Source: Caenorhabditis remanei (taxonomy: Eukaryota > Nematoda > Chromadorea > Rhabditida > Rhabditidae). From it: DNA of 64,000 nucleotides. Shown here in pieces: positions 8,967-62,617 of this stretch (its first letter is position 1; each line of letters begins with the position of its first letter). The notes under the pieces were generated by a model, which was not told where the DNA came from, made no database searches, and was given only the letters and a program-made list of their open reading frames with translations. Where the stretch lies: contig NC_071332.1 of the NCBI RefSeq assembly GCF_010183535.1, forward strand, positions 18,538,001 through 18,602,000, read 5' to 3'. Position numbers and translations under genes: made by a program.

Positions 8967-8982
8967 AGTTCATATCTGTAAT

Positions 8983-15591: not shown

Positions 15592-15593
15592 TA

Positions 15594-15759: not shown

Positions 15760-15772
15760 GCGTTGAATTCGC
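15760..15772 (+). promoter_or_regulatory. GCG-N7-CGC motif after F-box gene I
   Basis: ATGCG-TTGAATT-CGC, 95 nt after the original stop of gene I at 15665, followed by TCTCAGAATTGTTATTTTTACC. The spacing measured from the pre-insertion stop fits the other copies. Confidence 0.5.
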
Positions 15773-15870
15773 TCTCAGAATTGTTATTTTTACCAGGAGT
15801 ACGGTTTGCGTTAAAGTTCACAGGTGTTTGCGTACAATGCACCAAGTGTCACGAGCATTGTTCTTTTCGT

Positions 15871-16062: not shown

Positions 16063-16071
16063 GTTTCTCCC

Positions 16072-20632: not shown

Positions 20633-20694
20633 GTTTCTCCCCGTTTGGTACGGCCTCAATCAACCCAATCCGTTTTTCCAGGTATTATCTGAAA

Positions 20695-32963: not shown

Positions 32964-35900
32964 ATGTCACAACGTCTCCTATCCGACCGAACTGCCCTTC
33001 TCACTTGCATACTTTACGACACTCTTGCCAATATTCCAGTCTACGAATCATATCAAAAATTGTGTAAAATCAGAGGAAACTATGAGATTGATTACGTGGA
33101 TTTCGAATTTCATTATTATCGATTTTATAATGGAGATGGGAATTTGGATTGTGATCGGAGGTAAGTGCGCTCCATTGAACTCCCACGTACGGGCCGTATC
33201 TGTGAATCGTATGGTGATACCTGGGAGTCGCTGCTCAGCGAATAGAGAAAAAAAACGGAAAAATGTATTTTTTCGGAACTTTTGGGTCCCACCACGAAAA
33301 TGTTGAATTGTTCATTCGAACAGTTTAATTTTTTAATTTTATTTTATTTGAAACGAAGGAACAAGTCACTGACACGTTACATTCAGAAGAGGAGTTAAGT
33401 GAGATTCAAATTAGACCGGGTCACAGAATTAGATGGTATGGGTATTGAGGGTAAGATATTTAGTAAGATTTAGTTTGGCAATATTAGATTTAAAACACCG
33501 GGAAGAAATTTTAACGGGGAAAACATGTTCAGGAAGTTCATTCCAGCAATTTAATGTACGATTTCCAATGAATTGTGAACGTTGATTGGATGTATTCTTT
33601 AAGGCGCACCGAATGTAATATTTGTGCCTACGTAAGTTGGCGACATCGGGATAGTACGTACGAAGGTTATCATAAGTGCATATCTCCTTAGATATGAGGG
33701 ATTTGTATATGCACAGTAGGTCATTAATAAGTCTCCTATATTCCAGTGATTCCAACTTCCAGGTTTCCAGACAATCAAAATACGATATGTAGCTCATATT
33801 GAACTTTTTGTAACATCGATATAAAAATGATTTCTGGAGCGATTCCAGCTTCCGAATCATAACTTTTGTTATAGGTGAGAACACAACGGTGCCATACTCG
33901 ATTATTGGCCGAACATAAATTAGGAAGCATTTCAAAATAACTTCAAAGCTGGAATGTGTGAGAATTCTAAAAAGTATGTTGATACGTAAGTGGCACTTCC
34001 TGATAGTTATCTCTATGTGTCTTGAGAACGTCAGATCTTGCGAGAAATATACTCCAAGATCACGGATAGTTGAGGTAGTAGGAAGTGATAGACCGTTTAG
34101 AGTAAATTTACTGGAGACATGGATATAACTGCTTTTACGTTTACTCAACGAGAATTTAATGACTACGCATTTATTAGGAGCCACAGACATCTGCCATGTT
34201 TTACACCAGCTTTCAAGTTTGAAAAGGTCTGACTGTAAAGTAGTTTCATCAGTTCCGTAAAGTTTGAGATCATCAGCGTATAATAAATAATTCGATATAT
34301 ATTTGTCTCCAATATCATTGATGAATATCAAGAAAAGAAGCGGCCCAAGAACAGAGCCTTGAGGCACACCTGAGCTTACTGCCATAGGTTTAGACATTGT
34401 TTTGTTAACCATTACTTTTTGAGATCTCCCTGTTAAGAAGGACTCAAGCCAATTAAGTAGGTTCCCGGCTATTCCACAACTTCCGAGCTTTGAGACTAGT
34501 TTAGAGTGAGATACGGTGTCGAAGGCTTTTTTGAAATCCACATAAACTGCCCAAATTGGCTTCTTACTGGAAGAATCAGATAACAAATCTCCAGAATAAC
34601 GTATTAGTTGCGAACAGTCATGGGTCTCACCGCGAAATCCGGAAGTTACGGTATTTTTAGTGAAACTGAAAATTTTGCCTGATTGACCTAAACTACCGTA
34701 TTCTTGTCATTTTCGCGGCGAGACCCATGAAACCGACATTTTTGAAATCAGCAGATCAAGACGGTTCAAATGAGTATAATCATGCCTATGTTTGAAAAAA
34801 CCGATTTTTTTTGAAAATTTTGGGTCCCGCCCAGGGTTGCCGCCGAAAAAAAAATTTATTTTCGGTTTTTCGGCTTTTTCGGGTGTATGGAGCCGAAAAT
34901 ATTTTATTTTTTTCGGTCTCCGCGGAGCGGAGAAAAAATTTTCGGTTTTTTTTTCGTCTCCCGAAAAAAAAGTTTTCGTTTTTTCGGTTTTGGAAAAGAA
35001 GGTCGATTTTTTAGCTGTTTTTATTCATTTCATTACTGTTTTCAGTACATTTTTTTGATTTTTCGGGTTTTTTGAGGGGTTTTTTAAGGGGTTTTTAGGC
35101 GAACAAAAAAAGTTTTCGGGTATTTTTTAGGCGACCGAAAAAAAAATTATTTTTTTTCGGCTTTTTTTTAGGAGGCCGAAAAAAATTTATTTTTTTTCGG
35201 CTTTTTTTCAGGAGGCCGAAAAAAATTTATTTTTTTTCGGGTCAAATTTTTTTCGGCGGCAACCCTGGTCCCGCCGCGAAAAATTCGGAAAATTTCGACT
35301 TGTTCATAAGCTAGTCATGATTATATTCATTTGAACCGTCTGAAAGCGCTGATTTCAAATATGTATGTTTCATGGGTCTCACAGCGAAATTGAAAGAGTT
35401 ACGGTAGTTTTAATGAACCTGAAAATTATGCCAGGTTGGCTTAAATTTCCGTAGCTTTGTGTTTTCCGTGGGGAGACCCACGGAGCCAAAATTTTTTGAA
35501 ACCACCTGATCTAGACGATTCTGATGAGTATAATCATGCCTATGTTTGAAGAAAATCGATTATTTTGAAAATTTTTGGTTCCCGCCGCGAAAAATTAGGA
35601 AAATTCAAATTTTTCGAAAGTATGTCATGATTATATTTATTCGAACCGTCTTAAAACGCTGATTTCAAATATGTATGTTTCATGGGTCTCACCACAAAAT
35701 TGGAAAGGTTACTGTAGTTTTACTGTAACTGAAAATTTCAGCTCTTTCCCCAAATCGTTGTCATTCTCCACACTTCCAGTTGACGCTCTTCTCCAGATTC
35801 TCCAAAGAATCGATTTCAATGATAAGTGAGTTAACAACCAATTAAATAACCAAATTAAATTTCTAATTTTATTTTCAGATTGAAAATGCGAAATGTGTCG

Positions 35901-39292: not shown

Positions 39293-42200
39293 ATGCCTTG
39301 GACGGATTTATCGGTGAAATTGAAGCGAGAAGTGGCCGGAAGGCTCGATTTTATGAGCAGGTATGATTAGGATTCTTGAATGCGTCAAAAAAAAAAAACA
39401 TTTTTCTTATATGATTAGGATTCTTGAATGCGAGCAGGCCTTTTTTGCCTTTTTTGCCAAAAAAATTTAGAAAAAGGTAGAATTTTTGACTATATTTAAG
39501 AACATTGATAAAAACTGAAGCGTACGAGAATTCCGGAGAATTTTGACAATTTTTAATGAAAATTTCAAAAAATTTCGAAAAAATTTGTGAAAAAATTGTG
39601 AATCCGAGCCGAACCAGCAAAATTTTTGGTCAGTCCGGCTCGGAATACCGAAACCCTGGGGTACCAGATACGCGCTAGTTAGAGTGCCCCCACCAACTTC
39701 AAACTAAGCACCAAAAACGCGCCAGCTCACCGAAAACGCGCCAGCTCACCTGAAATGCGCCAACCACAAGTTTCCATGAAAATTCAAATTTCCCGTTATT
39801 CTAGACGCTGCATGAGTCAAACAAGCCATTTGGGCTGCTAAATTGTGTTTTCTAACTCACAGAGGCGAAGTGGTGCGCCGCTCTGTACACCGAAAATGCG
39901 CCAGCTCACCGAAAACGGACCAACTTTAAATTACCATGAAAATTGCAATTTTCCGATGTTCTAGACAGAAACGCGCTAGTTAACTCATCCGACACCAATT
40001 TCAAACTGCGTACCGAAAATGCGCCAGCTCACCGGAAACGAGCCAACGCCGAATTTCATAAAAATTCAAATTTTCCGATATTCTAGACGCTCCATGAGTC
40101 AAACAAGACGTTTGAATCGCGAAATTGTAGATTCCACGCAAATTTTGAATTTTTTTCTCGAAAAAGCCAAATTTTTGACTATAATTCAAAGGGGAAAACA
40201 TTTTGAAAAATCATCAAAAACGTTCAAATTTTCGATGAAAAATTGATAAAATTTCGAAAAAAGTTTTCAAAATCCGGGCCGGAACGGCAAAATTTTTTGT
40301 CAGCCCGGCCCGGAATTTCCTAACCCTGGCGCCTACGCACCAGAAACGAAAAAAGCACCAACATCAAATATTCATGAAAAATTCAAAACTTTCCGATATT
40401 CTAGACAGAAACGCGCTTGATAACTCAGCCGACACTAATTTCAAACTGTGCACCGAAAATGTGCCAGCTCACCGAAAATGCGCCAACCCCTAATTACCAA
40501 GAAAAATTCAAATTTTTCAATATTCCAGACGCTCCATGAGTCAAACAACCCGTTTGAATCACGAAATTGTGGATTCCACGCGAATTTCTGTGCCACGTGT
40601 CAAGATTGTGGTCGACGATTCGGATTACGTCATCACGATGTACACTGGAATCGAGAAAATTCTGAAAATTGAAATTAAGAAAGGATACGATCAGAAGACG
40701 GTGGTCTCGAGGTGAGGGACACTTTGTAACCGGGGACGTTTCGCAACTTTTTGTTTTGTTTTTGTAGATCAGAAAATAACTGTGAGACTGTCCAATCGAA
40801 ACCATCCGAGAAAAGTACGATGGACGTGTTTGTGGAGATTCTCGCGAGTTTTTTCAAGACGGAGACAGTGGATATCGGTGTTTTGGAGTGGGATTTCAAG
40901 CAACACGCCGTCCCTGGCTCTGAGGTACGGTAGAAACTAAAAAAAATTTTAAAAAATCCAAAAATTGTGAGCTAAAAATCACAAAAATCTAAATTTTTCA
41001 AAAATTCCAAAATTTTTCAAACTACCGTAACCTCGTCGTTTTCGTTGGGAGACCCATGAAGCTAATATTTCTGAAATCAGCAGATTAAGGGGGTTCTAAT
41101 GAGTATAATCATGCCTATGTTTGAAGAAAATCAATTTTTTTTTGAAATTTTGGGTCCCGCCGCGAAAAACTCGAAAAATTCAAACTTTTCGAAAGTACAC
41201 CATGATTATTCATTTGAACCGCCTTAAAAAAAAAAAAAAAAACGCTGATTTTAAAATTATATGTTTCATGGGTCTCAACACGAAATTGTGAAGGTTACGG
41301 TAGTTTTAATGAAACTGAAAATTTTGTCAAATTGACTTAAACTACCGTAACCTTATCATTTTCCTGGTGAAACCATGAAAACAACATTTTTGAATTCAGC
41401 AAGTTAAGAGGGTACTAATGATTATAATCATACCTATGTTTGAAAAAATCGATTTTTTTCAAAATTTTGGGTCCCGCCGCGAAAAATTCGGAAAATTCAA
41501 ACTTCTGGAAAGTATGTCAAGATTATATTCATTCGAACCATCTTGGAACGCTTATTTCAAATAGATATGTTTCATGGGTCTCATCTCGAAAATGTGAAGG
41601 TTACGGTAGTTTTAATGAAACTGAAAACCTTCGAAATCCCGTTTTTGAGATTTTTAGCTCAAAAAATCACAAATTTTCATTTTCAGAACGATCTGAAAAT
41701 GAAAAAGCGTCAAGGAATCCTTGTCAACGTGCTCTCGTCAAAAATCGAGAAATCAACTGGCGGATCCACAGTTTTCCACACCGAGAAACTGGTGATTTCC
41801 GACAAATGTGCATCTGATTTCACCACAGGTCTTCTGAATCTCTGCGACAAAGAATATCTGGATTCTATGGAGGTTCTCACGTTGACATCGATTGAGAAAG
41901 CCTCTAAAACCGGAGCGTGGTGCGATGTGTACACGGAAAACGCGGAATCCTTTTGTGAGTTTTTTTTTCATGAAATTTGGAGCATTTTCAGCTGAAAAAG
42001 AATTTTTCCAGACAGTCAAGGAGTTTTCTATGAGGAAGTCCCATGCGTCGACAAATTTCTTATGACTACAAGCTACCGTACTACCAACTGGTCGACACTT
42101 CGATTTGCGAGACTCAACGAGAAAGCAATGAAAATTTGGAGTCGCGCCGGTTCAGTGCTTTCGAGGTATCCTTAAAAAATTTTAAAATTTAAAATTCGAA

Positions 42201-45200
42201 AATTTTCCAGAACGCCCGACAAGAAAGAGTTCAAAATTGTGCGTGAGAAGGAGGAAAAGAAGATTTTGTTGCATAAGAAGACGGAATGCGGGTACTCTAT
42301 CACTGTGTACACCGACGAGAAGTTCGACAAGTTGGGTGGGATGAAGTGGTTTGAGACGGAGTTTATGGTAAGTGTAGGTGCACGGATAATGCGTCAAGAC
42401 ACTGGAAACGCGCCAAGGCAATGAGAATGCGTCAAGCCACAAAGAAAACCGTTTCTCTTCAAACATAGGCATCATCATACTCATTAGAACCGTTTTGATC
42501 TGCTGATTTCAAAAATGTTGGTTTCATGAGTCTTCCAATGAAAATGAGGAGGTTGTGGTAGTTTTAAAGATTTTAGAATATCGAAAATTTTCAAAATTCC
42601 AAAACTGTGCAAGTTTCCGTCGGATTTTTATGATTTGAGGCTCAAATATCTTGGAATTCTTTGAAACTTTTCAAATCACCGGGAATGCGTCAAGACACTT
42701 AGAATGCGCCAATGCCCTAGAAAAGGGTCAACACACAAAATTGCATTCACTAAAAACGCGCCAGCAATATTTATCTTCTTTTCAGAACCAAAAATGCGAT
42801 CTCGGCTGGTTTTGCAAGAAATGCTGTGACCCATTCGACTATTGGTATCATCAAAACCTGCCAACTCTGAATTCAAAAGTACTGCAAATCAATTCGGATG
42901 ACACTTTTGTGAAGTCGTGGGGATTCAAAAAATCTGAAGGCGTTGGACCACCAACTGCGACTACTACCACTGGAATAGAGGTAATGTTCATAAGGATTTT
43001 AAATTTAGTTCCTAGAATGCGTCACGTCACCAGAAATGCACTAGTTAGCTCATTATAAGGCGTCCCCGCCCCACCAGTCGGCACCGAAAATGCGCCAGCT
43101 CACCGAAAACGCGCCAGCTCACCGAAAACGCGCCAACACCAAGTTTTCACGAAAAATTCAAATTTTCCGATGCTCTAGGCGCGCCATCAGTCAAACAAGT
43201 CGCTTGAATCGCGAAATTGTGGATTCGTGAGGTTGTGAAAACAAAATTTTAGAAAAAATCATAACAAATTTTCTGAAATTAAAATTTTCAGCGTCGTCCC
43301 AACAATGAGAGAGACCAATTGATTGCTCAATATGAACAGTTGTACTTGGAAGTCAGTCAACTAGCTGAGAATTTCACCGAAAAGATGTTGGAGGAGATCA
43401 AAAAGTTGAGGGACTCACCACAAACGAAGGAGATCAAAACTGGCCTCGCGAAGTGTAGAGAACTGAAGAAGGGGGTGAATGAAATGGTTGAAACTGTGAA
43501 GTCGATGCTGCTGAAATTCAAGAACTCGGAAGAATTCGGTGTGGACGTGATTCGAATGAGAATTGGGCAGATTCTGGAGGCAAAATCTCGATTGGAGGCG
43601 AGCATGAAGTTGTTTGGAGGCGTTGGAGCAAAGAATAAAGTAAATATAAATATAGATGAATAGTTCCGAATAAATTATTTGTATTATTTTCCAGCTTCTT
43701 CTTCAACAAATCGAAAGAGAAATTCTGATTGCCCAATGTGAGCAACTCTTCCCGGAAGTTAGTGATCTATCGGTAGTTGTGTTGGCAAAGATGTCAGAAG
43801 TCTCTAAAAAACTAGAAGGTGTTCCACTATCAGCTGCTGTCAAAACAGCGATGAAACAATTGAAAGAGTCGACGACGACTTTTCGTGATATACCGAAACT
43901 CACCACTTCTTTGTTGAATCAATTCAGAAATAATTCAAATCTAGTCAGTGTGAAAGTGATTCGGGAGAGGCTTGAATCCACTCAAAAACTGAGAATCCGT
44001 TTGGAGAAAGCCATGGAGAGTGCTGAGGCGTTGGTGTGTTTCTTTTACGTTTAGCTGTGAAGTTTCATGATTTCGAATCATTCCGGATTTTGAAACTATG
44101 AAATTTCAAATGTTGGAAATTGTTCCGGAATATCTTACTATTAGCACGACACGCTTTTTACAACCGCGCTCTACCGAAACCCTAAAAAATTGTGTGCGAA
44201 ATTGAGAGACTCAGAGAAAAAGCGACATGGGCATTTCGGTGGAGCGCAGTTTTTAGAACTATGCAGTCTTGTAATTCGCCAGTTTTGAAATGTATCGGTT
44301 CCGAAACTTCCGGATCCCAAAATTCTTTATTTTCAGATTTCCCAACATGAAAGAGCTCAACTAATTGCCCAATGTAGATGCTCTCTTATTACTATTCCAG
44401 AAGCCTTAAGTGCTGTCGAAATTATTGCTGTGGATGTATTTATCAATGGGAAGTCAACACGTATTATATCATGTTATCACGCCAATCATAGTTCTGATAT
44501 CGGTCCAATCATTGAAGCGCTGGAGTTCTTATTGTCTACCCACAAACAGACTATTATTACTGGTGACTTTAATATGCCACACATAGATTGGTCGAGTATG
44601 ACGGCTTCGGACAGCAAGTGTAATGAGTTTTTAAGCTTTGTACTTCGGAATGGATTATGTCAACACGTCCACTCTCCCACCCGCCTTAATCCAGACCATA
44701 TACTTGACTTATTGCTGACAAATACTCCGAGTGTACGTGAAGTGGTGGTAGGGGAATTATTCAGCGATCACAAGTTGATAAGAGCAACCCTGAATTTATC
44801 GCTAAAGAAACTACCCAATCATAAAACCTTGCTTAATTTCCGGAAAGCGGATTATGATAGTATCAATTTTGTATTGAGCAATACGAACTGGAACTCTATA
44901 TTTCGGGAACTATCGGTCGAGGAGATGTACAGTCAATTACTTGAGATCGCCACTAATCTTATCAATACTTATGTACCTACTGTCACCCGAAATTTCTTAC
45001 TGAAGAAGTATCCTGCTGAAGTTAGACGGTTACAAAAGTTGAAGCTATATATATGGAGGAATGAGGGTAACACTGAACGTTACAAGGCCATTAGTGCTTT
45101 ATTGAAAAAATCCCTCACTGATTATGATACATCGGAACTCGAGAAAAAGCTTACTACTGGTTCATCTAAAACCTTCTTCAGATTTATGAAAGACCACATG

Positions 45201-48200
45201 AAACCGTTTCATGAGGTCGGTATCATCAAGAACAATGGCGAAATTATCTGTGATGACATAACCAAAGCGGAGCTGTTTGCTGACAGGTTTTCGGAAGTGT
45301 TTACGCATGATGATGGCAATGTTCCATTCTTCAAACCAAGGTCCAACTCTATTATCGATGGCTACGAATTCGAACCGTATATAGTGGAAGCCGTGTTGGC
45401 AAAGCTCAAGCCCAGACATAATCGAACTCCGGACCAGATTCCTGCTATATTTCTGAAGAGAGTTGCCACCGCCATCGCGTTCCCACTCACTCTAATTTAC
45501 AACAAATCACTGTCAACTGGCAACATACCTCATATCTGGAAAAAAGCCATTGTTGTACCGTTGCACAAAAAAGGTCTTAGATCAGACTGTAACAACTACA
45601 GGCCAATTGCACTTACGTCCAGTGTCTGTAAAACTATGGAAACCATTCTTAGAAGAGTTTTGGTCCAACACCTGAATGTCAACGGCCTATTGAATGGGAG
45701 TCAATACGGTTTTCGCGCTTACCGAAGTTGCGAATCTCAACTTATTCATTATCAAGGCTCTCTATTACAAGATCTGGAAAGGCACAAAGCCAACTTTGCC
45801 ATCTATATAGACTTCAGTAAAGCGTTTGACAAAGTACCGCACAACAAATTATTGACCAAACTCGAAGGATATGGTGTTCAAGGAAACCTTCTTCGTTGGT
45901 TATCCACGTTTCTGACTAATCGTAATCAGGTAATTTCTCTAAATGGAATTTACTCGAAACCTATGGATGTTATTAGTGGAGTGCCACAAGGCTCTGTCCT
46001 TGGTCCTCTTCTCTTCCTCCTATACATCAACGATATTAGTGACAACGTGGAATCCAATATATTAATGTTCGCGGATGATCTAAAACTCTTCTCTCCGCAT
46101 GCCAATTTATTGCAGAATGATTTAGCTATTATATCCGATTGGTGCTCCCAGTGGCAAATGACAGTCGCACCAAACAAATGTGAAGTTATTGCGTTCAGAC
46201 ACTCGACACGCAACCTTAAAAGCAAATCTTCCCCGGATTTCCATATTTCGGGTTTGAAACTCCCTTTTGTAAGGCATATTCGAGATCTGGGAATATTCTT
46301 TTCGGACGACCTTTCTTTCACACATCATGTCAACATTATTCTAAGGAGATCTCAATTCAGAGTGAATATGCTTTTCAATATTCTCAAGAATTCGACTATG
46401 GAAGTGTTTATTAGATGTTATATTATATATATTCGACCTATCTTGGAGTATGGATGTACCATTTTCTCGCCCTATCTCAAACTTCACATTCGGAAGATTG
46501 AATCTATTCAGAAGTCATTTGTTCATCGAATTTTCAAAAAATTTGGAATAGAATATACATCCTATTTCAACGCTCTGGATATATGTGGACTGGACTCTCT
46601 GGAGCTCAGAAGATTAGTTTTCGATTTGGTATTTATATATAAATCAATTATCAGCAGAGAGATCTATTGTGCAAATGCCTTATTTACATTTATTCCATCT
46701 GTTAAATCTCTAAGAAGACACCCATTTTATTTGCGTTGTAATATCAAAAATAGTAACAAATCCAGCTCCCAGTTCTTGTCCAACCGTACTTTAAACTGTT
46801 GGAATTCTCTACCCGTTTCTTCTTTCCCGGTTAAATCTTCCTCCCGTTCGTTTAAAACTAACTTGAAACATGTTGATTTGTCTAAGTATCTAACTCTTTC
46901 TCCCCTCAACTATTAATGTTTCTACTTGTCTCCCCCCTCCCTCTCTCGTTTTTGGCCTATTCACGAGGTAGCAAAAAAAGGGCAAAACTATTTTTCTCTT
47001 TTTTACTACTTCCAAAGGGAAAAATAGTTTTTTACCACCTAATTTTGCGTCCTCCAGAATCGGCCCATCAAATATTTATTTATCTTTTTGAATCCACTTC
47101 GGTTGTATCAGTGGCTCCTTGCCCTTCATATCGAATTAAAATAAATGTGAAAGCCTTTTCCTGGAAGCCGCCAAAGCAGCCACAAATTTCACAACAAAAC
47201 TTTCGAAAGAGATTCCAACAATGGAGCGTCTGACACATTTGAATGGCGTCAAAGAGAAGCTTGATTTTTTTAAATTTTTGGAAAATCTGGGCACTGAATT
47301 ACCCGAAAAGATGAGATCGTGGATTTTCCAATTCAAATATACAAACATGTTTGAAGTTGACGGGATTCGTGAGAAGCTCTCATGGGTTCAGCGGGTGAAA
47401 AGGGACTTCGAGAATGGCATGCAACTTTTTGAGCCGAGGAAGAATCCTCCTCAAGATTCTAAGGTAAATTTCATTTTACTTACTAGGGAAGGCCTCCGGG
47501 TGACCGTGGAGTTATGGAACGCGACCTATATCATTGAAAAGCTGAGAAAAGGCTGATTTCAAATATATATTCAGTTTTTGCCCGCGAGGCCTGGTATTCG
47601 AGAAAAACAAGGTAAAAGTTTGGAAAAAATGACAAATTATTGCCTTTCTGACACGCGAAAAATTTGTTGAAATTTTTTTTTGCAATTTTCCCGTGTTAAA
47701 AAGGCAATAATTTGTCATTTTTTCTCGAACTTTTACCTTGTTTTTCTCGAATACCAGGCATTGAGGGCAAAAACTAAATATATATTTGGAATCAGCGTGA
47801 TTTCAGCTTTCCAATGATATAGGTCACGTCCCATAACTCCACGGTTACCTGGAGGCCTTCCCTAGTTAGATCCCTAGATCTTTAGATTTCTGAATTTTCA
47901 GTACCAGAAAATCCTAGTTTTTCCGATAATCATACAACCAGATTATTTGGTCTATCATACTTTTCATCAGGGTCTATCCAAACCGGATGGTCTGTAACTC
48001 GAAATCATCAATTTTTTAAAAAGATTTGAAGATCCTGAGAACCGTAGATTCCTAGATCTTCAGATTTTTGGATTCCGGTTCTTCCAGATCCTTTGATCTC
48101 TACATCCCATACTTGTCAAGGCCCTGGTTTAACATTTTACTTCAATTCTTTATGGAAAATGTGAACATTTTTTATGTTTTCTGAATTTCTTCTAATGCTA

Positions 48201-51200
48201 AATCATAGACAAAGATTTGACTTATTCGCAAAAAAAAATCAGCATTTTGAATTTTGAGATTTGACGCCAATTAGCCTGGCTTTCGGGACGGACCTTAATT
48301 TTGTTGGCAAGACCCGGCCCGGGCTTTGACAAACATGTTACATCCTGAAATTCTCAGATTTTCAGAATCTCTATTCCTTAGACCCCTAAAAACTTCAATC
48401 AGAACGTTCAATATTCTTGAAATATTGTAATTTTCCAGACTGAAAGAGATGAATTAATTGCACAAAGTGAGCAACTATTCTCTGAAATTACTCAAATAGC
48501 TACTGCTATTTCTCAAAAAATGTCCAAGACAATTCAACTAATAGAACTATTCTGGATGGCACTGGATAACAAGACCAAAACAGTACTGAAAGACAATGCG
48601 GTCGCAATGCGGGAAAAATTCGACAGTTTGCCGCCTGTTCTTGAATCGTTGCTGAAGGAATTCAAGAGTTCTGCTAAACATAGTTTGGGGGAGATGCGAG
48701 TGATATATCAGATGGCTTTGGAAATGAAAGTGGAAGCGAAGGGTCATCTGAAACAATTGGGAGATGAAGATCCGATCATTGATGTCAAACTGGTACCAGA
48801 AGTCTCAGAATCCGATGACGTTGCGAAGGAAATCGCTGAACGACTAAAGGTAAAAATTTTGATTGAAAATTTGACGGAATTTGTTTTTTTTTCAGGAGGC
48901 TGTTGCTCACAAGATTCTGAATCCACTTGCCACTTCTGAAACTCTTATTAGTCCAGAAGACAAGAAGGAATCTCAGAAGAAGATTCCGGACACACTTGAT
49001 GCTTCTGAAGATATGTCTTCTAGTGCTGGAAAATCGGTAAGAATAGTATTTTTTGAAAAATTGAAAGGAATAAGGTTTATAGGATGTTGCTCACAAGATT
49101 CTGCACACACCTGTCGTTTCTGAAGAACCGGATGACGTCATCAAAACTCCAGATAACGAGAAAGACTCTGAAGCCATGGTAAGCTCTAGAGCTCCAAGAA
49201 TTTCCAAAAAAAAATTGTTTTTTTCTAGAATCCCGCCACTGAAAAAGCCGAACTAGTTGCTCAATGCGAGCAATTATTCCCAGTAGTTGCACAAACGCTC
49301 ATCAAACACACCGAAATCATGACAGAATACCTGAAAGAACTCAACGAGGCCCCACTAACAGATGAAGTGAAAAAGGAGATCAAAGATTGCAAGGAAGTGT
49401 TGCAATTGATTGATTGTGTGCCCGCGAATCTGCTGAAAGCACTGAAAAAAATGAGGGAAAACGATGAAGTTGAGGTTGAGAAGATTCGGGAGATGATGCT
49501 TCAGCTTCAGAATATCAGACGACGGATGGAGGCGGAGGTGAAACGTTTTGAAGGAATGGGTATCGATGTTGGAGAACAGGCGAATGGAAAAGAAACCACG
49601 GTAAGTTTTATATACTTTTCAGACACGGGCCGGCGCGTAACTTGCTTAAACCTGAGTTTTGTCAGCTGAAAAGTATACCAAAATGTAGATCTCAGTGAAT
49701 TCTATGTCTCTATTATTATACGGAATGTGTGACTAGTTGTTAACGTACCGCGGGCCAGGCTAGAACGGCTTTATGGCCATTTTTGTGATTTTGGCATTTT
49801 TTCTCGGCTCGTGGGACATTCACAAATAGCCATCCGGCCCGTATTATATAACGCGTTCTCTGTAAGACTCGATCAATAGAGGTACTAGGGAAAGTTTGTT
49901 ATATAAACATGCACTCTGGGTTTTTGGTAACACATGTGCACAATATTGGGTCCCAGCTTCATGCGTTGAACATGTCCTCATATACGTTCTTTGAAAGTTT
50001 CAAAGACGTATGTAGCTAACTTACACGCCCTACGCCTCTAGCTACAGTGACCATAATCGAGTCTTACGGAGAATGCGTTATATGGTTTATAGGATGATGC
50101 TGTCGCTTCTGAAGACCGGGATGACGTCACCAAGGCTCCAAATGGCAAGAAGGATTTAGAAGACGCTCTGAATGCTCCAGATGCCTCAAAAACTGACGTC
50201 TTCAGGAAAATTGGCAAAAAAATCGTGGCTACAGAACAAAAATCGGTAAAAATAGTTTTTTTTTTTGGAAAATTGGAAGGAATCAAGTTTATAGGATGTT
50301 GTTATCGCTTCTGAAGACCCGGATAACGTCACCAAGGCTCCAAATGGCAAGAAGGATTTAGAAGACACCCTCGATGCTCTAGATGTCTCGAAATCTTCTA
50401 TTACGGTAACCTCGGAAACCCAACAATCGGTGAAATTTGTGTCTTTTTCAGGTTGGGGTTTCTGAAGACGTCGTCAAGACTCCAGATGACAAGAAAGATT
50501 CTAAAGTCCTGGTAAGCTCTGAACCTCCTTGAATTTCCACAGCTCACAATTTTTTCCAGTATCCTGCCACCGAAAAAGCCGAACTAGTTGCTCAATGCTC
50601 TCAATTATTCCCAGAAGTTGCACGATCGCTCCTCAAACTTACCGGAATCTTGACAGTATGTCACAAAAAACTCAACGACGCCCCACAAACAGATGCCGTG
50701 AAAACTGTCGCCAAGGATTGCAAGGATGTGTTGGCATCGATTGATGGTGTGCCCCGATCTCTGCTGAATGGATTGAATAGGATAAAGAGAGACGATACAG
50801 TTGAAGTTGAGCAGATTCGAGAGATGATGGTTACGGTTCAGAATATAAGACAAAAGACGGAAGTGGAGTTGAAACGTTTTGAAGGTCTCGGTATCTATGA
50901 GGATGTTGGAGAAGAGACAACGGTAAATTTTGAGAACACTTGTCAACCGGTTCGGAGTGTAATTTGCTTCAAACTGAGTTTCATAAGCTAAAAATATACA
51001 AAAATGTAGACTTCAACTAGATCTACGTCTGTGACCTATTACGGGCCCGGTGGTTAGTCGTTTATATACCGAAGCACGGAACCCTATCACTCCAAACTCT
51101 ACTTTTAATGCGTCAGCGCGACCAGAAAACCGTTAGTAGTCAGAGACTGTGCTCATAGTCCGATAAAATGTTTTTTGAAAATGGGTTAACCAAAGAAATG

Positions 51201-52520
51201 CTTTTTGGAGAAATTTAGGGCAATTATCGACAAAATATATGCATTGAATCTAGTATAAAACGGCTGATTAAGCAATTTTTGTATACAGTATGAAAACTTT
51301 CTTGCTATGCGCCTTTAAGCTACAGTAAGAATTTGCACTGCGGAAGCGTCAGTAATCTTTTGGGTGTGCTGGAGGCGCAGGGTGCACTCTTATAGCAATA
51401 ACATTTCGAAAATTTCTCATTTCTGATCTTTAAATTGTCTCCCTGAGTGCCGTGCGAGAGCCGAACTAGAAAAGATATTCTGACAATTTTTGCGTTTTTG
51501 GTACTTTCCATTTGGCCCTTAGTAAGTCACAGACGTAGAACTCGACGAGATCTACATTTTGGTATATTTTTCAGCGCATAAAACTCAGTTTGAATCAAGT
51601 TACGTGCCCATTTTGACCCGGTTTGCAAGAATGCTACATTCTCGAAAACTTCAACCTTGTCGTTTTTCAGAATTCTAATCCCGAAGAGAAGTCCGTTTTG
51701 ATCGCTCTATGTGAACAACTCTTCTCGGAAACCGGCCAAGTGGCGTCTAAACTTTTGAGAAAAATGACAAAACGGATCAAGCAAATAGAAGATCTACCAC
51801 AAAAAACTGATGCGTGTAAAGAAATGCTGGAGACGTGTCAGATGATTTCAAACTATTGCGAACCGATCCCTGAGGTCACAATGAATGAGTTGATGTATCT
51901 TCAAGAGTATTCGGATTACGTTGGAGTGGAAGAGATTCGAGACACGATGGGAAAGGTTGAAAATATGAAACGCATGCTGGAGAACAAGCTGAAACAGTGT
52001 GAGGATGATTCGGAGGATTCTGAAGACGTCACGAAGGCTCCAGACAACAAGAAAAGAACTACGGTGATTCTAAACTATGAAAAATCTCTCTTGATCGCTG
52101 AATGTAAACAACTCTTCCCGGAAGTCATCCAAATGGCGTCTACACTTGTTAGCAAACTGTCAAAATTGATCAAACAGTCAGAAGGTCTAGAACCAAAAAC
52201 TAAAGTACAAAAAAATGCTCTGGAAAACTGTCTAATCGTGGTAAACAGGTGCGAACCGGTACCCGAGTCCATGATGAATGAGTTGACGCATATTCTCAAG
52301 AATTCAAACGAAATAAGATTGGAAGAGATTCAAGAAAGATTGGAAAGGGCTCAGGAGAATAAACTTCAACTCGAGGAGTGGCTGAGCACTTTAGAAAATC
52401 CCAAACCCTCGGATTGTATCGATATTGCAGATGTGGTTGATACTGTGGTAAGTCTTACGAGCCAGTTTGGAGTTATGTGACGTGACAGATATGAGTAGAA
52501 AACTGAGAAAACGCTGATTT

Positions 52521-52558
<38 letters not shown>

Positions 52559-54563
52559 GTTTTCGCAGACGAGGTCTGGTATTTGAGAAAAACCGAAGTC
52601 AAAGTTCTGAAAAATGTCAATTTATTAGCTTTCAATTTTCAAATCTATGTGACTTTCTTGAGTTATAACCAAATTTTCGGATTTTCGGACATTCAGACAT
52701 CAGGACACACCGTCAGACAGATATACCCAACATTTGTGTTTTTGCTGCAGCCTTAGGTTCAAAAGTCTTTTTTTTTTCCAAAATTTTTTTTTGATTAAAT
52801 AACAATTTTGCTTTTTTTTTTTTGAAAACTCAACCAAAGCTCAAGGTATTAAAACAATTTTGAAGGTCTTGACTTAGTTTTTCATATAAACTACGTTTTA
52901 GTGTGCTTGAAACCTTTTTCTCAACTTTCCCAAACTTTGACCTTGTTTCTCTCGAATACGAGACCTCGCGGGCAAAAACTGAATATATATTCGAAATCAG
53001 CGTTTTCTCAGTATTAAAATGATACAGGTCATGTCCCATATCCTCCCTAGTTAGACTCAAAAACGTACTAGTTTCCCCATTAACATTCTTCAGAGTCTCC
53101 AGAAAGACAAACAGGAGCTCATAGCTGAGTATGAGCAATTGGCGAAAGAAATCAGCCAGATCGCCATGCATTTCTCAACAAAACTGTCAGAAACTGCGGA
53201 AGCATCAACACGAGTTTCAAAGCCTGAGGAGCTTCCGAAAGACTTCCGAGAGGATTTTGAACAAGTTGCGGAGACTTACAAGGGATACTCGACACAGTTT
53301 GAGAATGCTATCGGGCAGTGCAAGAAATTGGGGAAAGGGGAGATTGTGAAGCAGATTCTGAAGATGCAGAAGTATAAGGTGCAGTTGGAGATGGAGGTGC
53401 AGACGATTGCTGAGCAACTATGGAAGAAGGATTCTCAAAATGCCAACGATGCTCCAGATGTGAAAACGATGGCTGTTACGGTGGGCTCGGAAACCCAACA
53501 ATTAGTAAAATGGCTGTTTTTTTTCAGGATGGTGTTTCTGAAGTCATCAAGACTTCAGATGACAAGAAAGATTATGAAGCCATGGTAAGCTCTAGAGCTC
53601 CTAAAATTTTCGAGTTATACAATTATTTTCTAGAATCCCGCCGCCGGAAAGGCCGAACTAGTTGCTCACAGCGAGAAATTTATCCCAGAAGTTGTACAAT
53701 CCGTCATCAAATTCCTCGGATTCTTGACAAAATATATCGAAAGACTCGAAGACGCCTCACAAACAGATGCCGTGAAAGCTGATCTCAAGGATTGCAAGTA
53801 TGTGTTGAAACCGATTGAGGGTTTACCCGCAAAACTGCTGAATGTCTTGAGAAGAATAAAGGGAGACGATACATTTGACGTTGAGGAGATTCGTGAGACG
53901 ATGGTTAAGGTTCATGCTATCAGACGTGAGATGGAAACGGGGATGAAACGTTTCGAAGGAATGGATATGGATGTTGGAGAGCAGGCGAATGGAAAAGAAA
54001 CTACGGTAAAATTTGAGCATAATTGTTAGACACGGCCGGCGCGTAACTCACTTAACCAAAAATCGGTAAAATTTGTGTGTTTTTTTCAGGATGGTGTTTC
54101 TGAAGACGTCATCAAGACTCCAGATGACAAGAAAGATTCTGAAGATGTCGGCAAGGCTCTAGAAGATAACAAGGATTTAGAAATTGTTTCAGAAGGAGCT
54201 TCGAAAAATGAAGAACCCGACGTTTTCCAGACAATTGGAAAGAAGATGTTTGGATCAATCCCTGAAGCGAATGCTCTGATAGACCCACGTTCTCGAAAAG
54301 CGGTAAGTAACACAAAAACCTAATCAATATTTCTGATCTACTATTTTTGTTTCCAGCGTTCCATCAACCCGGATGATTATGACTACGTGGGATCCATGTA
54401 TCCAGATGACTTCACACACTACCTTGAGCACCGAAGAAAGTTTGAGAACAGGGATTTCGATTTCGACTGCAGTTGTGCTCGTCTACAGTTTCTCGCGGTC
54501 TTCTTCTTTGTCCTTTTTTCGATTCTTTTTGTGGTTCTTTGGATTGAGACATTCGTTTATTAA
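39293..54563 (+). CDS. Giant F-box/helical-repeat/TM protein M
   Basis: Twenty-four exons, without the LINE, give about 1996 residues: 39293-39360, 40529-40711, 40768-40924, 41687-41954, 42012-42165, 42211-42367, 42786-42980, 43292-43639, 43695-44033, 44337-44375 plus 47149-47463, 48439-48849, 48896-49036, 49083-49178, 49229-49600, 50093-50245, 50295-50429, 50452-50511, 50560-50922, 51671-52447, 53094-53504, 53528-53584, 53634-54005, 54090-54302, 54357-54563. All phases join. Exons 1-7 give an F-box-like start (DLSVKLKREVAGRLDFMSR) and an associated domain ending GMKWFETEFM. Ten repeats of about 105-115 residues follow, each opening like EKAELVAQCEQLFPEV. Acidic linkers (SEDVIKTPDDKKDSE) separate later repeats. 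The end has one membrane segment (LAVFFFVLFSILFVVLW) after a CSC pair, then IETFVY and stop. Not recognised as any named protein. It could be two genes split near 44-47 kb. Confidence 0.65.
39690..40145. repeat. Repeated intron-tail/exon-2-head cassette
   Basis: A unit of GCGCCAGCTCACCGAAAA, a stretch ending CAAATTTTCCGATATTCTAG, and the first bases of exon 2 of gene M (ACGCTCCATGAGTCAAAC) recurs in intron 1. Copies of the exon head lie at about 39804 and 40084, with a partial one near 39963, before the real exon at 40529. The copy at 40084 still reads RSMSQTRRLNREIVDST behind an AG acceptor before diverging. Confidence 0.65.
41019..41620. repeat. Dispersed repeat array in intron 3 of gene M
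   Basis: Three to four copies of the repeat also seen at 34614-35741 (GAGTATAATCATGCCTATGT; GGGTCCCGCCGCGAAAAA; TTTCATGGGTCTCA) fill this intron. One copy contains an A-rich run of about 18 bases near 41227-41243. Confidence 0.6.
43070..43232. repeat. Further cassette copy in intron 7 of gene M
   Basis: GCGCCAGCTCACCGAAAACG words and a diverged exon-2 head (GCGCGCCATCAGTCAAACAA, then TCGCTTGAATCGCGAAATTG) follow TGCTCTAG at 43171. The copy reaches further into exon 2 than those in intron 1 but sits after six downstream exons. The unit was therefore copied to a distant intron. Confidence 0.6.
44376..47148 (+). mobile_element. LINE inserted in exon 10 of gene M
   Basis: The reading frame from 44376 to 46916 encodes the end of an AP-type endonuclease (TIITGDFNMPHIDW; ELFSDHKLI) and a full reverse transcriptase: KKAIVVPLHKKG, NYRPIALTS, IYIDFSKAFDKVPHNKLLTK, SGVPQGSVLGPLLFLLYIND, and MFADDLKLF, plus the C-terminal region. 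The 5' part is missing. AATGT occurs at 44371-44375 and 47144-47148 and is a 5-bp target duplication. The host frame flows into the element (IAQC then RCSLITIPEA) without a stop. The 3' end is AATTAAAATA. Same family as the LINE at 33325-34600. The stop is at 46914-46916. Confidence 0.85.
47482..47866. repeat. Hairpin element in intron 10 of gene M
   Basis: ACTAGGGAAGGCCTCCGGGT at the left pairs with the inverse at the right (GGAGGCCTTCCCTAGT). Inner matching words include CAAATATATATTCAGTTTTTG and GAATACCAGGC / GCCTGGTATTCG around a centre near 47670. Confidence 0.7.
49843..50087. repeat. Inverted repeat in intron 14 of gene M
   Basis: ATTATATAACGCGTTCTCTG followed by TAAGACTCGA near 49850 pairs with TCGAGTCTTACGGAGAATGC and GTTATAT near 50058-50085. 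It sits just upstream of the exon 15 acceptor. Confidence 0.5.
50925..51650. repeat. Large hairpin filling intron 18 of gene M
   Basis: Left-arm words (CAAACTGAGTTTCATAAGC, AAAAATGTAGA, ACGTCTGTGAC) recur in inverse on the right (AAACTCAGTTTGAATCAAG, TCTACATTTTGG, GTCACAGACGTAG). The arms are separated by unrelated sequence around 51100-51480. Confidence 0.55.
52474..53056. repeat. Hairpin element in intron 19 of gene M
   Basis: This is the same family as 47482-47866: GCTGATTTCAAATATATA and GTCTGGTATTTGAGAAAA on the left, with the inverses CTCGAATACGAGACCTC and ATATTCGAAATCAGCG on the right, ending CCTCCCTAGTTAGA. The left arm is shortened and contains a TA run at 52524-52555. Confidence 0.6.
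52524..52555. repeat. (TA)n microsatellite
   Basis: About 15 TA units lie within the left arm of the intron 19 hairpin. The related hairpin at 47482 has only about three units at the same place, so the run expanded after insertion. Confidence 0.85.
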
Positions 54564-58318: not shown

Positions 58319-59358
58319 TTACATTTCAAACAAAGCACGGTCAACATAAAAATCGAAAGACTTCTCGCCATAAAAAGTTCCAAATCGAATTGTGGCTTTC
58401 TTCCCATCTGTTCTTTCGATATCATATCCTCCACAATACGATATTGATAAAACGCCCAGTTGTTTTGAATGAGAGAACGTTCTCTCTCGGTCTCCTAGAA
58501 ATGGAAAATCATTCAGTACTTCCAAAAGGCGCGTTTCATTGACATCTTCATTTACGAGCAATGACAGATGCTCAAGTCGAGAGTTGTGTTTGCTGTGAAA
58601 CCAATTTGTAAGAAATTGGCAGATATCTGTGGCACTAAACAAAACTTGTCTTAATTCCACCTTGAGTGCGTTTGTGACCAGAAAGTCATCAAGAGTGAAC
58701 GTCGAGAACTGACTTTGAATATACAACTCGTTCAAATTACTCTTTAGGAAGGTCTGAAACTCTTCTCTGCTCTCAAATGGAATCCGGTACAATGAAATCT
58801 CCGTGGTAACTGGCAAGATGATTTCCAGAGCTTTCTTTGCAAAACTATCGGAACAGGTATCCACGATGACTAATTTCTGGAGTTTTGACAGTTGAGCGAG
58901 AGTATCGCACACTTCTAGTTGAAGAGGTCCTCTGAGAATCACATATTCAAGCGATTCACAACTAGTAACCTCAAGAATTCGCTCCACCAATTTCGCGACA
59001 GTGATCGACCCCTTTTCCCATGAAATCATTCCGTTTCGAAGCATCACGTTGACCTCATCCGGAAGTATCTCCGTGTACAAATGGAGCCCCACTGACATAT
59101 CATTTTTCAATGCTACTGTGATACGAGGATAATCACTCCTAACAAACGCACTGATGGAATTGATAGATATTTTGCGAAGACTTTTCGACAGTTTATTGGT
59201 CCTTTCGGAGAGAAGCGAGAATGAAATTCTGAAATGATTGAAAATGAGGGATAAAACATAAGAAAGAGGAAAACTTACATATCAAGTGGATCCATGTAGT
59301 TGAAAACTGGAATAAGGGCAAGTCTAGGGAGACGTAAGAGAGGGAGCGGAGTCGTCAT
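58319..59358 (-). CDS. F-box/FBA_2 protein P2 (fbxb-like)
   Basis: Exons 59358-59279 and 59228-58319 on the minus strand encode 329 residues. The short first exon carries the F-box core (PLLRLPRLALIPVFNYMDPL), continued by SFSLLSERTNKLSKSLRKI. The second half is an FBA_2-type domain: FLVTNALKVELRQVLFSA, ICQFLTNWFHSKHNSRLEHL, and the end GGYDIERTDGKKATIRF. FBA_2 is the usual partner of the F-box in C. elegans fbxb proteins and is thought to bind substrates. Intact, with a 50-bp intron. Probable SCF adaptor with unknown substrate. Confidence 0.85.
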
Positions 59359-59427
59359 CTCGATAGGGAAGAGAGGGTACAAATGAGATGAAGAATCAAT
59401 ATTTGAGTCGATCGGGAGAGACCGCAA

Positions 59428-59444
59428 CGCACGACCGCGACGCG
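59428..59444 (-). promoter_or_regulatory. Conserved upstream block of gene P2
   Basis: CGCACGACCGCGACGCG, identical to the P1 block, 70 bp upstream of the ATG. Confidence 0.5.
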
Positions 59445-59719
59445 ACTGGAGTGTGCTCTGGGAAGACAAACACTCTTAGAAAGACGACCTGCACATCTAA
59501 CTCTTGTCGTGAAAAGGTAGATCCCGTATGTAGTGTTCATATGTCCAAAAAAGTTCTTAAAGCGGTTCGGGCATTTGCCAGAGTTCTCATGATACGCAAA
59601 AAGTCTGGTTAGAGAAACTTTATTCCATCGAAAAAAAATGAAAAAGATAATTAAGAGAAACACAATTTGATATCAATGATGTGATTTAGAATAACAATTT
59701 TAGAATAAAAGAAACGAAA

Positions 59720-60749
59720 TCACGGCCAAATGTAGAAGTCGGTGAACATCATGTCAAACTTGTTTTCAAATGTGATTGTGGCTTTCTTCCCATCTGCTCT
59801 TTCGATATCATATCCACCAGAAAACGTTTTCAAAGAAGTGTCTAGCTGTTTTGAATAACGGAACGTTCTTTCTTGATCTCTTGGAAAAGCGTTCAGTATT
59901 TCCGGAAGGCACGTTTCATCGAAACTTTCAAATATGCGAAATTTCAGATGTTCTAGTCGAGAGTTGTGTTTACTGTGAAACCAATTTGTAAGAAATTGGT
60001 TCAAATCTCTAAGTCTCAATGTGACTCTTAACAATTCCACCTTGAGTGCATTTGTGACTAGAAGGTCATCAAGAGTGAATCTCGAGAACTGGTGAGTGTT
60101 AATGAACAAATAGTTCAAATTAGTCTTCAGAAATGTCTGAAACTCTGTCCTGTTCTCATATGGAATTTTGAACAATTCAACTTTCGCAGTAACTGGCGAG
60201 AGGATTTCCAGAGTTTTCTTTGCTAATCTGTCACCACAGCTCTCTTCAATCAATAAACTTGGAAGCTGAGTCAAAATAGCAAAAGCATCGCATACATCAA
60301 ACTGTGGAGTTCCTTCGACACTAATTTTCGTCAGCGATTCATAGTTCGTCACATCTAGAACCCGCTCCAACCATTGAGATGCTGACAACCCGGTGTTTTC
60401 GTTAGTAAAAGCTCTGTTTCGAAGCCTCGCATCGGCCAAATCCGGTGCGTTCTCTTTGTAGAAATATAGGCTCAGTTCCACGTTGTACCACGTTGCAAAA
60501 CAAAGACTAATGTCAAGGTGATCGCTATTTACTTTTAGATAAATGTAACGAGGAGATATTTTGCGAAGGCTTTTTGAGAGGTTATTGGCTCTTTTGGAAA
60601 GAAGCGAGACGGCAATTCTGGAATGATTGAATATGAAGATGAGAACGAAAAAGTAAGAGCAAAAATTACATTTCAATAGGTTCCATTTCTTGAAAAACTT
60701 GAATCAGTGCAAGCCATGGAAGGCGTAAGAGAGGAAACGGAGTCGTCAT
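59720..60749 (-). CDS. F-box/FBA_2 protein P3 (fbxb-like)
   Basis: Exons 60749-60670 and 60617-59720 on the minus strand encode 325 residues. F-box PFPLLRLPWLALIQVFQEME then VSLLSKRANNLSKSLRKI. FBA_2 motifs are LDDLLVTNALKVELLRVTL, LNQFLTNWFHSKHNSRLEHL, and GGYDIERADGKKATITF. It is closest to P5 and next to P2, so the array probably grew by unequal exchange. The end DFYIWP is shared with P5 (DFYVWP). Intact. Confidence 0.85.
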
Positions 60750-60817
60750 CCTGGTAGAGGAGAGAGGGTACAAATAAATGAGGAAATCAATGGTGTCGAG
60801 GGGAGACCGCACCGCTC

Positions 60818-60834
60818 CGCGCGACCGCGACGCA
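60818..60834 (-). promoter_or_regulatory. Conserved upstream block of gene P3
   Basis: A CGCGCGACCGCGACGCA variant of the block, 69 bp upstream of the ATG. Confidence 0.5.
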
Positions 60835-60902
60835 GCAAAAGTGTGCTTTGGGATGACAAACATCTTTAGGGAGACCACCTGCACATCTAACTCTCTTCGC
60901 AA

Positions 60903-61568
60903 CTAGTGTCTTCACTAATCTCCCTGGAGACGTTTGTCTTCCCATCGGACACTCCAGCCGCAGGAATGGCCCAAGCATCGATTGTTGAATGACAGACCGC
61001 ACCGCTTGCGCAGTTGAAGTACGCTCTAGGGAATTCAAACATTTCATTGGAAAGACCAAGTACAATGACAGAGAAATAACGTAGTTCCGCCTACGAATAC
61101 TTTTATTGGTGTCAAAATATTATAGTTTTGTTTCGACATGTACAACACATCGAACTTCTGTTTACTCCATTCCGCTATTGATACGTTTCTTTTATCAGAC
61201 CTGCCCTTTGATGCAATCAACATTTAAAGCTGAGCCAGATATGCAAATGCGGTAGGGTTATTTTCAATTAGTTTCTCATATATAGCTTCAAAACGACCTA
61301 AATACGTTTTTTGCAGCCGGGCTTTCCCCGGTTCTTGCCGAGTCGGGCTTTGGAAAGTATGGTACAATGACGATTCCTCCTTTTTAGTCTGATCTGATTT
61401 GTGCCAGTTCTAATACGGTTCTCATAAAGGGTGGCACCGATGGAAACTTGTCTGGATTAACCCAATTCTGCAGAGAGGCGATATACCGCTGGATATATGT
61501 ATGAATTTTATTATTTAAAAAAATGTCCCGTAGAAAAAGGGTACCCGGGAAAGAGATAAAAAACAAAA
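60903..61568. other. Intergenic, no gene seen
   Basis: Beyond the promoter-like region of P3, this spacer includes a second weaker copy of the upstream block (AGACCGCACCGCTTGCGCAG near 60995) without any F-box exon beside it. This may be the remains of a deleted gene copy. Nothing else recognised. Confidence 0.35.
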
Positions 61569-62617
61569 TCAAATCCAAACATAAAACTCTACAACTGTTA
61601 TTCCGGTCATATCTCTAACTTCCAATGTTGCTCGTGTCCCATCCAATCGCATCACATCCAATCCTCCAGTCACAACCTTCTCTCGGCACCGAGAATCCTC
61701 ATAGACTCGGAACGTTCTCGTTGTAGTGGGTGGCATCTCGATAACATTGAGTCCCTTCAGAAGGACATCTGTACTCACCTCTTCTAAAGTCAGGAATTTC
61801 AGATGTTCCAGTCGGGGATTAGACTTGTTTCTCTTCCACAACTTGAAAAAGCGGTTGAGATCTTTCACACTGATCATGACACCAAAGAGATCTAGATGCA
61901 CAGCATTGCAAACGAGAAGGTCATCTAGAGATAGTCGCAAACGGGTTGGGTCCCGGGGAGTCATCAACTTGATTGTGATGCTATTCATGTTCAGCATGAG
62001 AACCTTTTGAAATTGTTCGAGGTTTTCAAGCTGGTTTTGAAACATTTCAACATTTGAGATCAATTTTGAGAGCATTTCAAACATTTTGTGAACGAAAACT
62101 TCGTTACAGTCACGCGAGATAAATATTTGTTCGATGTTTGGAAGTGTCGCAAGAATCGGAAGTGCATCGAATGATTCTGTTCCGCAGAACTTCAATTCTT
62201 GGATTGATGCACAGTTGGTAACATTCATAATCCGTTGAATGCATTCAGCCCTCGAAAGCCCTAAATTGCGCCATTTAACTATCTTGTTGTCGACCGAAAC
62301 TCGTATAAAATCCGAAAGATTTTCAGGGATGAGATGTAAAAATAGCTGTAGTCTTTTGTCATCTCCCAGGACTATGTCAAAAACGAGAAAGTGATTGACA
62401 GCCATTATATCGATAGAAGTTACTGATAGACCACGAGTTTTTGACATGAATCTTGCTCGATTAGAGAGGAAAGAGAACGCGATTCTGAAAAAAAAGTTTT
62501 TTAGTAAACGCGAAAATTACGTTGAAAACGAACTTACACATCAATAGGCTCCATTTGTTGAAAAACAGGAATCAGTGAAAGGCTTGGAAGGCGTAAGAGA
62601 GGGAACGGAGTCGTCAT
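61569..62617 (-). CDS. F-box/FBA_2 protein P4 (fbxb-like)
   Basis: Exons 62617-62538 and 62484-61569 on the minus strand encode 331 residues. F-box PFPLLRLPSLSLIPVFQQME then FSFLSNRARFMSKTRGLS. FBA_2 motifs are LDDLLVCNAVHLDLFGVMI and LNRFFKLWKRNKSNPRLEHL, ending TVVEFYVWI. It is the intact sister of pseudogene P1, and both differ from P2, P3 and P5 in the middle region. The array thus alternates two subfamilies (P1/P4 and P2/P3/P5). Confidence 0.85.

Follow-up and report, generated by a model that had tools for sequence, protein, structure and literature searches.

A likely gene fusion in Caenorhabditis remanei joining an F-box-like half to a helical-repeat rod with a C-terminal membrane segment

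Nesprin/KASH rods consist of a helical-repeat array followed by a C-terminal membrane segment, while F-box-FTH and F-box-FBA2 proteins carry an N-terminal F-box. Here we analyse a predicted gene of Caenorhabditis remanei that has something of both, located at positions 39293-54563 (+) of a 64,000-nucleotide stretch (C5:18538001-18602000, hereafter the window) of the 130-Mb genome. It shares with nesprins the repeat array and the C-terminal membrane segment, but differs from them in having no KASH match, a spectrin match below the cut-off and an F-box-like start. With the F-box-FTH and F-box-FBA2 proteins, which are its neighbours in the window, it has an F-box or F-box-like N-terminus in common, but neither the FTH nor the FBA_2 domain is matched. 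Closer to it are short F-box proteins (CBG18619, B9Z55_026825, L3Y34_009756 and others, plus rod-less C. remanei relatives), which share its F-box-like start and N-terminal half, in most cases the SWGF motif and a C-terminal membrane segment, and in two C. remanei members the position and phase of the first intron. They differ in their size of 354-541 residues, in the absence of helical repeats and in a short or acidic linker before the tail, and their tails show no detectable relationship to the rod gene's tail. GCK72_021230 (136 residues as annotated) and CRE_28994 (162 residues), both from C. remanei, share one repeat of the rod kind and a related membrane tail, and like our own 200-residue model they have no F-box half. 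Only CRE_28998, from another annotation of C. remanei, shares the architecture of F-box half, repeats, linkers and tail. It differs in having 8 repeats instead of 10, no R3, R4 or retrotransposon, and a start in exon 2.

We propose, with a probability of roughly 0.55, that the window holds a single C. remanei gene that is likely a fusion product and likely encodes an adaptor of the SKP1-CUL1-F-box (SCF) ubiquitin ligase held on a membrane by a rod. A fusion is likely because the F-box half on one side and the repeats and tail on the other match two different gene families, both with predicted C-terminal membrane segments.

Architecture of the gene

Joining 24 exons at canonical GT-AG sites gives a product of 1988 residues plus stop, in which an F-box-like start (E1-E7, 394 residues) is followed by repeats R1-R10, acidic linkers and a C-terminal membrane segment. 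The product of about 2000 residues proposed by the first-pass annotation is thus obtained only if a long interspersed nuclear element (LINE) is left out; as assembled, this element splits the R3 exon, which that annotation had missed. The parts are as follows, in window coordinates.

39293-39360 (+), E1: start codon and first half of the F-box-like domain
40529-40711 (+), E2: remainder of the F-box-like domain
40768-40924 (+), E3: F-box half
41687-41954 (+), E4: F-box half, putative substrate-binding region
42012-42165 (+), E5: F-box half
42211-42367 (+), E6: F-box half
42786-42980 (+), E7: family motifs DPFDYWYHQNLP and SWGF; the joint to the rod comes next
43292-43639 (+), R1 repeat
43695-44033 (+), R2 repeat
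44337-44375 (+), R3 repeat, first 13 codons, 5' of the LINE
44376-47143 (+), LINE retrotransposon (endonuclease and reverse transcriptase) in the R3 exon, target-site duplication AATGT
47149-47463 (+), R3 repeat, remainder of the exon, 3' of the LINE
48439-48849 (+), R4 repeat
48896-49178 (+), acidic linkers L4a (48896-49036) and L4b (49083-49178)
49229-49600 (+), R5 repeat
50093-50511 (+), acidic linkers L5a (50093-50245), L5b (50295-50429) and L5c (50452-50511)
50560-50922 (+), R6 repeat
51671-52447 (+), R7 and R8 repeats in a single exon; AlphaFold pair model, mean predicted local distance difference test (pLDDT) 81
53094-53480 (+), R9 repeat
53528-53584 (+), L9, acidic linker exon
53634-54005 (+), R10 repeat
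54090-54302 (+), L10, acidic linker exon
54357-54563 (+), E24: last exon, C-terminal membrane segment and stop

The ten repeat copies, each of about 110 residues, align with one another. Seven of them (R1, R2, R4, R5, R6, R9 and R10) occupy unbroken exons of their own, R3 is one exon split by the LINE, and R7 and R8 share an exon. Downstream of E7 every intron (17/17) is in phase 0, whereas the six introns within the F-box half show phases 2, 2, 0, 1, 2 and 0 (phase 0 in 2/6). This agrees with the first-pass annotation, which had described repeats mostly equal to single exons with phase-0 borders, and the acidic linker repeats it reported were found as well (repeat families D3 and D4). At the joint, E7 and R1 are both in phase 0, and the intron between them measures 311 nucleotides in the window. 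The start of E2, together with an acceptor-like site, recurs in three further copies within introns of the same gene (39816, 40096 and 43178; repeat family D6), one of which falls within the joint intron.

No convincing match was obtained for the repeats in Pfam, where the best was R1 to Spectrin_SYNE1 (15.3 bits against a cut-off of 35; spectrin at E<=1 in 2/19 repeat rows), so that the sequences do not reach the spectrin-repeat profile. NCBIfam gave no match, and a sequence search of the PDB with the repeats yielded nothing convincing, the best being a designed coiled coil (E 0.0013). Spectrin, other Pfam repeat families and solved structures were accordingly rejected as sequence relatives, which leaves standing the initial proposal that the repeats belong to no known family. 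In the AlphaFold model of the R7-R8 pair (predicted template modelling score 0.55), helices of 37, 17+15 and 25 residues are predicted for R7 and of 46, 17+15 and 26 residues for R8. Each repeat is thus predicted to form a three-helix unit, a plan that resembles spectrin repeats; we do not claim identity as spectrin. The count of ten repeats first given agrees with the alignment.

The product has a hydropathy peak of 3.05 (19-residue window, residues 1965-1983) five residues from its end, where about six had been counted, and the best 19-residue window before residue 1900 reaches only 1.21. There is thus one hydrophobic segment near the C-terminus and no second one, and a tail-anchored topology is the simplest reading of the sequence, as first suggested. 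The gene product (P0001) has no KASH match at E<=10 and does not qualify as a KASH or nesprin protein.

Two source families with C-terminal membrane segments

Searching proteins of 217-690 residues with the F-box half retrieved nine homologues (E 3.9e-25 to 1.4e-5), all of them from Caenorhabditis (C. briggsae, C. nigoni or C. brenneri), rod-less and 354-541 residues long, with 24-34% identity across 32-90% of the query. The motifs DFMS, IVDST, YTGIEK and CG are invariant in the alignment of the gene with these nine relatives. DPFxYWYxQNLP and SWGF occur in most of them (P0004, P0006 and P0010 are without one or both). By its homologous N-terminal half with DPFxYWYxQNLP and SWGF, and by matches in the genome, the rod gene belongs to this family. 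The intron after DFMS-R occupies the identical codon and phase in two rod-less C. remanei relatives. Seven of the nine relatives pass the Pfam F-box cut-off, with scores up to 31 bits, and P0008 is without an F-box match.

Seven of the nine, all except P0004 and P0006, also end in a hydrophobic segment (17-residue window, hydropathy 2.35-3.32, at most 8 residues from the end). In the C. remanei genome, the family N-terminus gave 32 matches and the C-terminal exon 29; these are exon matches, not genes, and include both rod genes. Among 12 hand-picked places fetched from these 29, eight have a membrane-like end in the same frame (hydropathy 1.81-3.48, 0-14 residues before the stop). In three more the segment lies in a following open reading frame (ORF) and needs an intron, a weak class, since in one of them (L087) other frames pass too, and one place has no such segment. 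In control ORFs of the window a membrane-like end was found in 2/89 (at least 100 residues) and 20/349 (at least 60 residues). One locus (L064) contains two adjacent family genes, both tailed, one of which is the source of the C-terminal exon query. Because seven of nine proteins and eight of twelve genomic places so end, an F-box with a predicted membrane tail is the usual plan of this Caenorhabditis short F-box family. The first-pass annotation had considered the combination new to proteins. This holds for the rod, found only in C. remanei, but not for the pairing of F-box and C-terminal membrane segment, which is common in the rod-less family of C. briggsae, C. nigoni, C. brenneri and C. 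remanei. In a rod-less member at C5:19637500-19638987 (L083), SWGF is separated from a possible tail by an acidic linker containing repeated Cys-rich units, CGPDCQECxRMNS.

An AlphaFold model of one relative (P0007) comprises a mixed alpha/beta domain at residues ~43-360 (pLDDT mostly 64-90, with a dip at 260-274) and a final helix; compared with the PDB, it had no fold match at E<=0.001, the best being 0.013. The FTH (PF01827) and FBA_2 (PF07735) domains gave no match to the gene at E<=10 or to the nine relatives at E<=1. With hhalign, profile comparison gave E 0.027 (probability 1.8%) against seven aligned window ORFs, two of them verified FTH, and E 0.26 against three window ORFs, two of them verified FBA_2. 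On the absence of a domain match and these weak profile comparisons, membership of F-box-FTH or F-box-FBA2 was rejected. The ORFs in question flank the gene as an FTH-kind cluster at 6460-22186 (+), with two of seven checked, and an FBA_2-kind cluster at 58319-62516 (-), with two of three checked. For a further F-box ORF, at 30262-30861, neither FTH nor FBA_2 is matched at E<=0.01, and a second reverse-transcriptase-like ORF was recognised by eye from its YADD motif at 33429-34706 (-).

The rod half leads to another family. Outside both rod genes, the genome contains two single repeats. One, at C5:19201644-19202333, gives a three-exon model of 200 residues with a short start, one repeat and a membrane tail; it overlaps with GCK72_021230, to which 68% of the query aligns at 100% identity, and shares 45% (BLAST) or 59% (MAFFT) identity with CRE_28994. 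The other, at C5:18.651 Mb, is interrupted. Compared with nine window repeat exons, the single-repeat gene scored above all 500 shuffles for eight, and for the R3 fragment 3/500 shuffles were as high. The tail of the rod gene scored 67 against that of CRE_28994 and 50 against that of the 200-residue model, with 0/2000 shuffles as high in either case, whereas against six tails of rod-less F-box proteins it stayed in the shuffle range (109 to 1510 of 2000 as high). The tail of the rod gene is thus not of the F-box family's own type and resembles that of the single-repeat gene, and its derivation from the F-box family's tail is not supported. A rod simply inserted before an inherited F-box tail was likewise dropped, the single-repeat gene and the tail comparison favouring fusion. 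Between the duplicate of the rod gene described below and the single-repeat gene lies a degenerate copy of the latter's tail exon (L067, C5:19177220-19177315).

Copies, constraint and alternative explanations

Both the tail exon (97%) and E4 (96%) have a match at a single further site of the genome, C5:19149148-19160361, at a distance of about 570 kb. This duplicate keeps E1-E7, R1, R2, R7-R8, R9, L9, R10, L10 and the tail in order and has R5/R6-like and extra R7-like repeats, ten in total, without R3, R4 or the LINE. CRE_28998 (1521 residues) runs from E2 to the tail with eight repeats, its joint intact and in frame. It is the only protein at E<=0.001 for a 1031-residue query (scored were the 7996 candidates with the most words in common). 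Since such a search retrieves only proteins of comparable length with words in common, and C. elegans proteins had no separate search, a lack of hits elsewhere carries little weight. CRE_28994 and CRE_28998 each lie on a contig of 248,833 bases. The numbers of 10, 10 and 8 repeats in the three copies agree with the array growth by exon duplication first proposed. In a tree of the 30 repeats, R1, R2, R8, R9 and R10 group by position across the three copies, all five with strong support, which argues that the array is older than the copies. R5/R6-type and R7-type numbers differ between copies; outside the window, neither R3 nor R4 has a close partner.

The LINE of 2768 bp (domains RVT_1 and Exo_endo_phos_2) splits the R3 exon (44337-47463) and is flanked by copies of AATGT, a 5-bp target-site duplication. 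Of the 15 genomic matches to a 701-bp piece of it, itself included, eight are 99-100% identical, which marks the insertion as recent and means that the R3 exon was whole until then. The R3 frame stays open into the ORF of the LINE, up to a stop at 46914-46916. The gene as assembled would thus give a truncated protein unless the R3 exon is skipped, in which case the phase-0 borders keep the frame and 1870 residues result. Left unspliced, positions 44289-46916 would fuse the F-box half and two repeats to an endonuclease-reverse transcriptase.

Codons were compared between the window and the duplicate, with R9 omitted for gaps and R3-R6 and the linkers not included. E1-E6 gave 0.018 nonsynonymous (dN) and 0.114 synonymous (dS) substitutions per site (dN/dS 0.16), and R1, R2, R7-R8, R10 and E24 pooled gave dN 0.099 and dS 0.21 (dN/dS 0.47), with E24 alone at dN 0.019 and dS 0.134. 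An excess of third-position differences is seen in both halves (106/235 and 21/36 differences; R10 alone has none, 5/14). These values indicate that codon-level constraint is kept in both halves. Rod-half exons are identical to the duplicate at 2099/2418 positions (86.8%) and four introns at 222/231 (96.1%; p 8e-6), while the F-box half shows the reverse (exons 951/987, 96.4%; introns 781/875, 89.3%). Rod exons less alike than their introns would result if repeats had swapped exons, or from old, divergent haplotypes.

Several observations weigh against a fused, membrane-held SCF adaptor. The Pfam F-box match at residues 3-41 lies where an F-box should, but its 12.8 bits fall under the cut-off of 20.5, so that the F-box-like N-terminus first described stands by its position and not by its score; in the P0007 model the F-box region (residues 1-40) has pLDDT <50. 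Neither copy in the assembly has an unbroken frame, the window copy having the LINE in R3 and the duplicate an E7 of 185 nucleotides (remainder 2 on division by 3), which breaks the frame into R1 and therefore speaks against a working fusion in the duplicate. CRE_28998 is a gene prediction only, starting in exon 2. Some 30 hydrophobic residues carry the link between the tails of the rod gene and the single-repeat gene. Single-repeat genes group in the tree with R9 at 88/79 and with no strongly supported R-type; as long branches meet there, naming a founding repeat was dropped. The rod is seen in one species.

The joined reading could be an artefact: a short F-box gene might end near E7 and a separate multi-repeat, tail-anchored rod gene begin next to it, near R1. 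A repeat with a tail does exist free-standing with its own start, the frameshift of the duplicate just before the joint puts its F-box half out of frame with the rod, and the 311-nucleotide joint intron of the window contains at least one ATTAAA. However, an F-box half without the rod would miss the tail that most of its relatives carry, and among ORFs of at least 60 residues no membrane-like segment was seen between E7 and R1. The joint intron of the duplicate measures 49 nucleotides, which is not known to suffice for a second promoter or the usual operon spacer, and CRE_28998, with its halves in frame, is unbroken from exon 2 to the tail. With E7 and R1 both in phase 0, this makes two genes improbable and favours the one gene assumed from the start. 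We also think it unlikely that both copies are pseudogenes in this strain, with an architecture that is currently functionless here. The LINE within the R3 exon and the frameshifted duplicate would fit such a decaying pair, but the youth of the LINE, the frame-preserving skip of R3, the dN/dS values of both halves and the unbroken CRE_28998 argue against it.

Alternatively, the protein might be foremost a membrane rod, a nesprin-like tether or scaffold, whose F-box-like start is a relic without SKP1 binding. This would be in line with the F-box score, the weakest among the gene and its nine relatives except for P0008, which has none, as well as with the weak spectrin match of R1 and the predicted three-helix repeats. 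We consider it doubtful, since the F-box half is more constrained than the rod (0.16 against 0.47), KASH is not matched and only about five residues follow the membrane segment. Less plausible still is a part in a selfish or immune conflict, in which a foreign protein or membrane-associated toxin would be removed by the adaptor, with the rod diversifying in an arms race. F-box antidotes are known in C. tropicalis, according to PMC12680543, and the rod exons differ from the duplicate more than the introns do, with the opposite in the F-box half. Yet this contrast is not general: R10 and E24 are 96% identical, the intron L10-E24 only 38/43, and the intron R1-R2 (54/55; p 0.014) is the only one between two diverged exons. 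The raised dS in R1, R2 and R7-R8 is likewise better explained by exon swapping or old haplotypes than by amino-acid selection alone.

Proposed mechanism and meaning

In the simplest history of the membrane-held adaptor, an F-box gene that lost or bypassed its own tail would have been joined to a single-repeat gene, and the phase-0 repeat exon would then have multiplied after the fusion. Because there is no other hydrophobic segment, we expect post-translational insertion of the tail into the membrane, with almost the entire protein staying in the cytosol. A very hydrophobic segment without a following basic residue favours the endoplasmic reticulum; the segment found here is very hydrophobic, with no basic residue after it, and this membrane would thus be the favoured one. 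The F-box would recruit an SKP1-like SKR protein and CUL1 at the N-terminus, the domain following it would bind substrates, and the rod would set the reach of the ligase from the membrane, with a spacer length that varies with exon number. According to PMC12680543, SKR-1 forms a complex with C. tropicalis KSS-1, whose F-box-like domain is not conserved in sequence, so that the weak F-box score does not rule out binding.

More tentatively, it is tempting to propose a Caenorhabditis family of tail-anchored SCF receptors in which the spacer from substrate domain to membrane evolves. One C. remanei member may have swapped its anchor for that of another tail-anchored gene and made the single helical repeat of the latter into a ruler of 8-10 units counted in exons, which would yield a membrane-bound ubiquitin ligase with an adjustable reach that diversifies by exon swapping. 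PMC8665587 counts 1426 F-box genes in C. remanei, a very large expansion, and 745 F-box genes without a known C-terminal domain in five Caenorhabditis species; in its main text the words 'transmembrane' and 'membrane' appear 0 times. Among the literature matches listed, no paper dealt with tail-anchored or transmembrane F-box proteins of nematodes.

In summary, a recurring C-terminal membrane segment would place a subset of these F-box adaptors on a membrane. The rod gene would be a fusion of two genes for tail-anchored proteins followed by multiplication of a repeat exon, in copies that are alike enough to study the growth and diversification of such an array.

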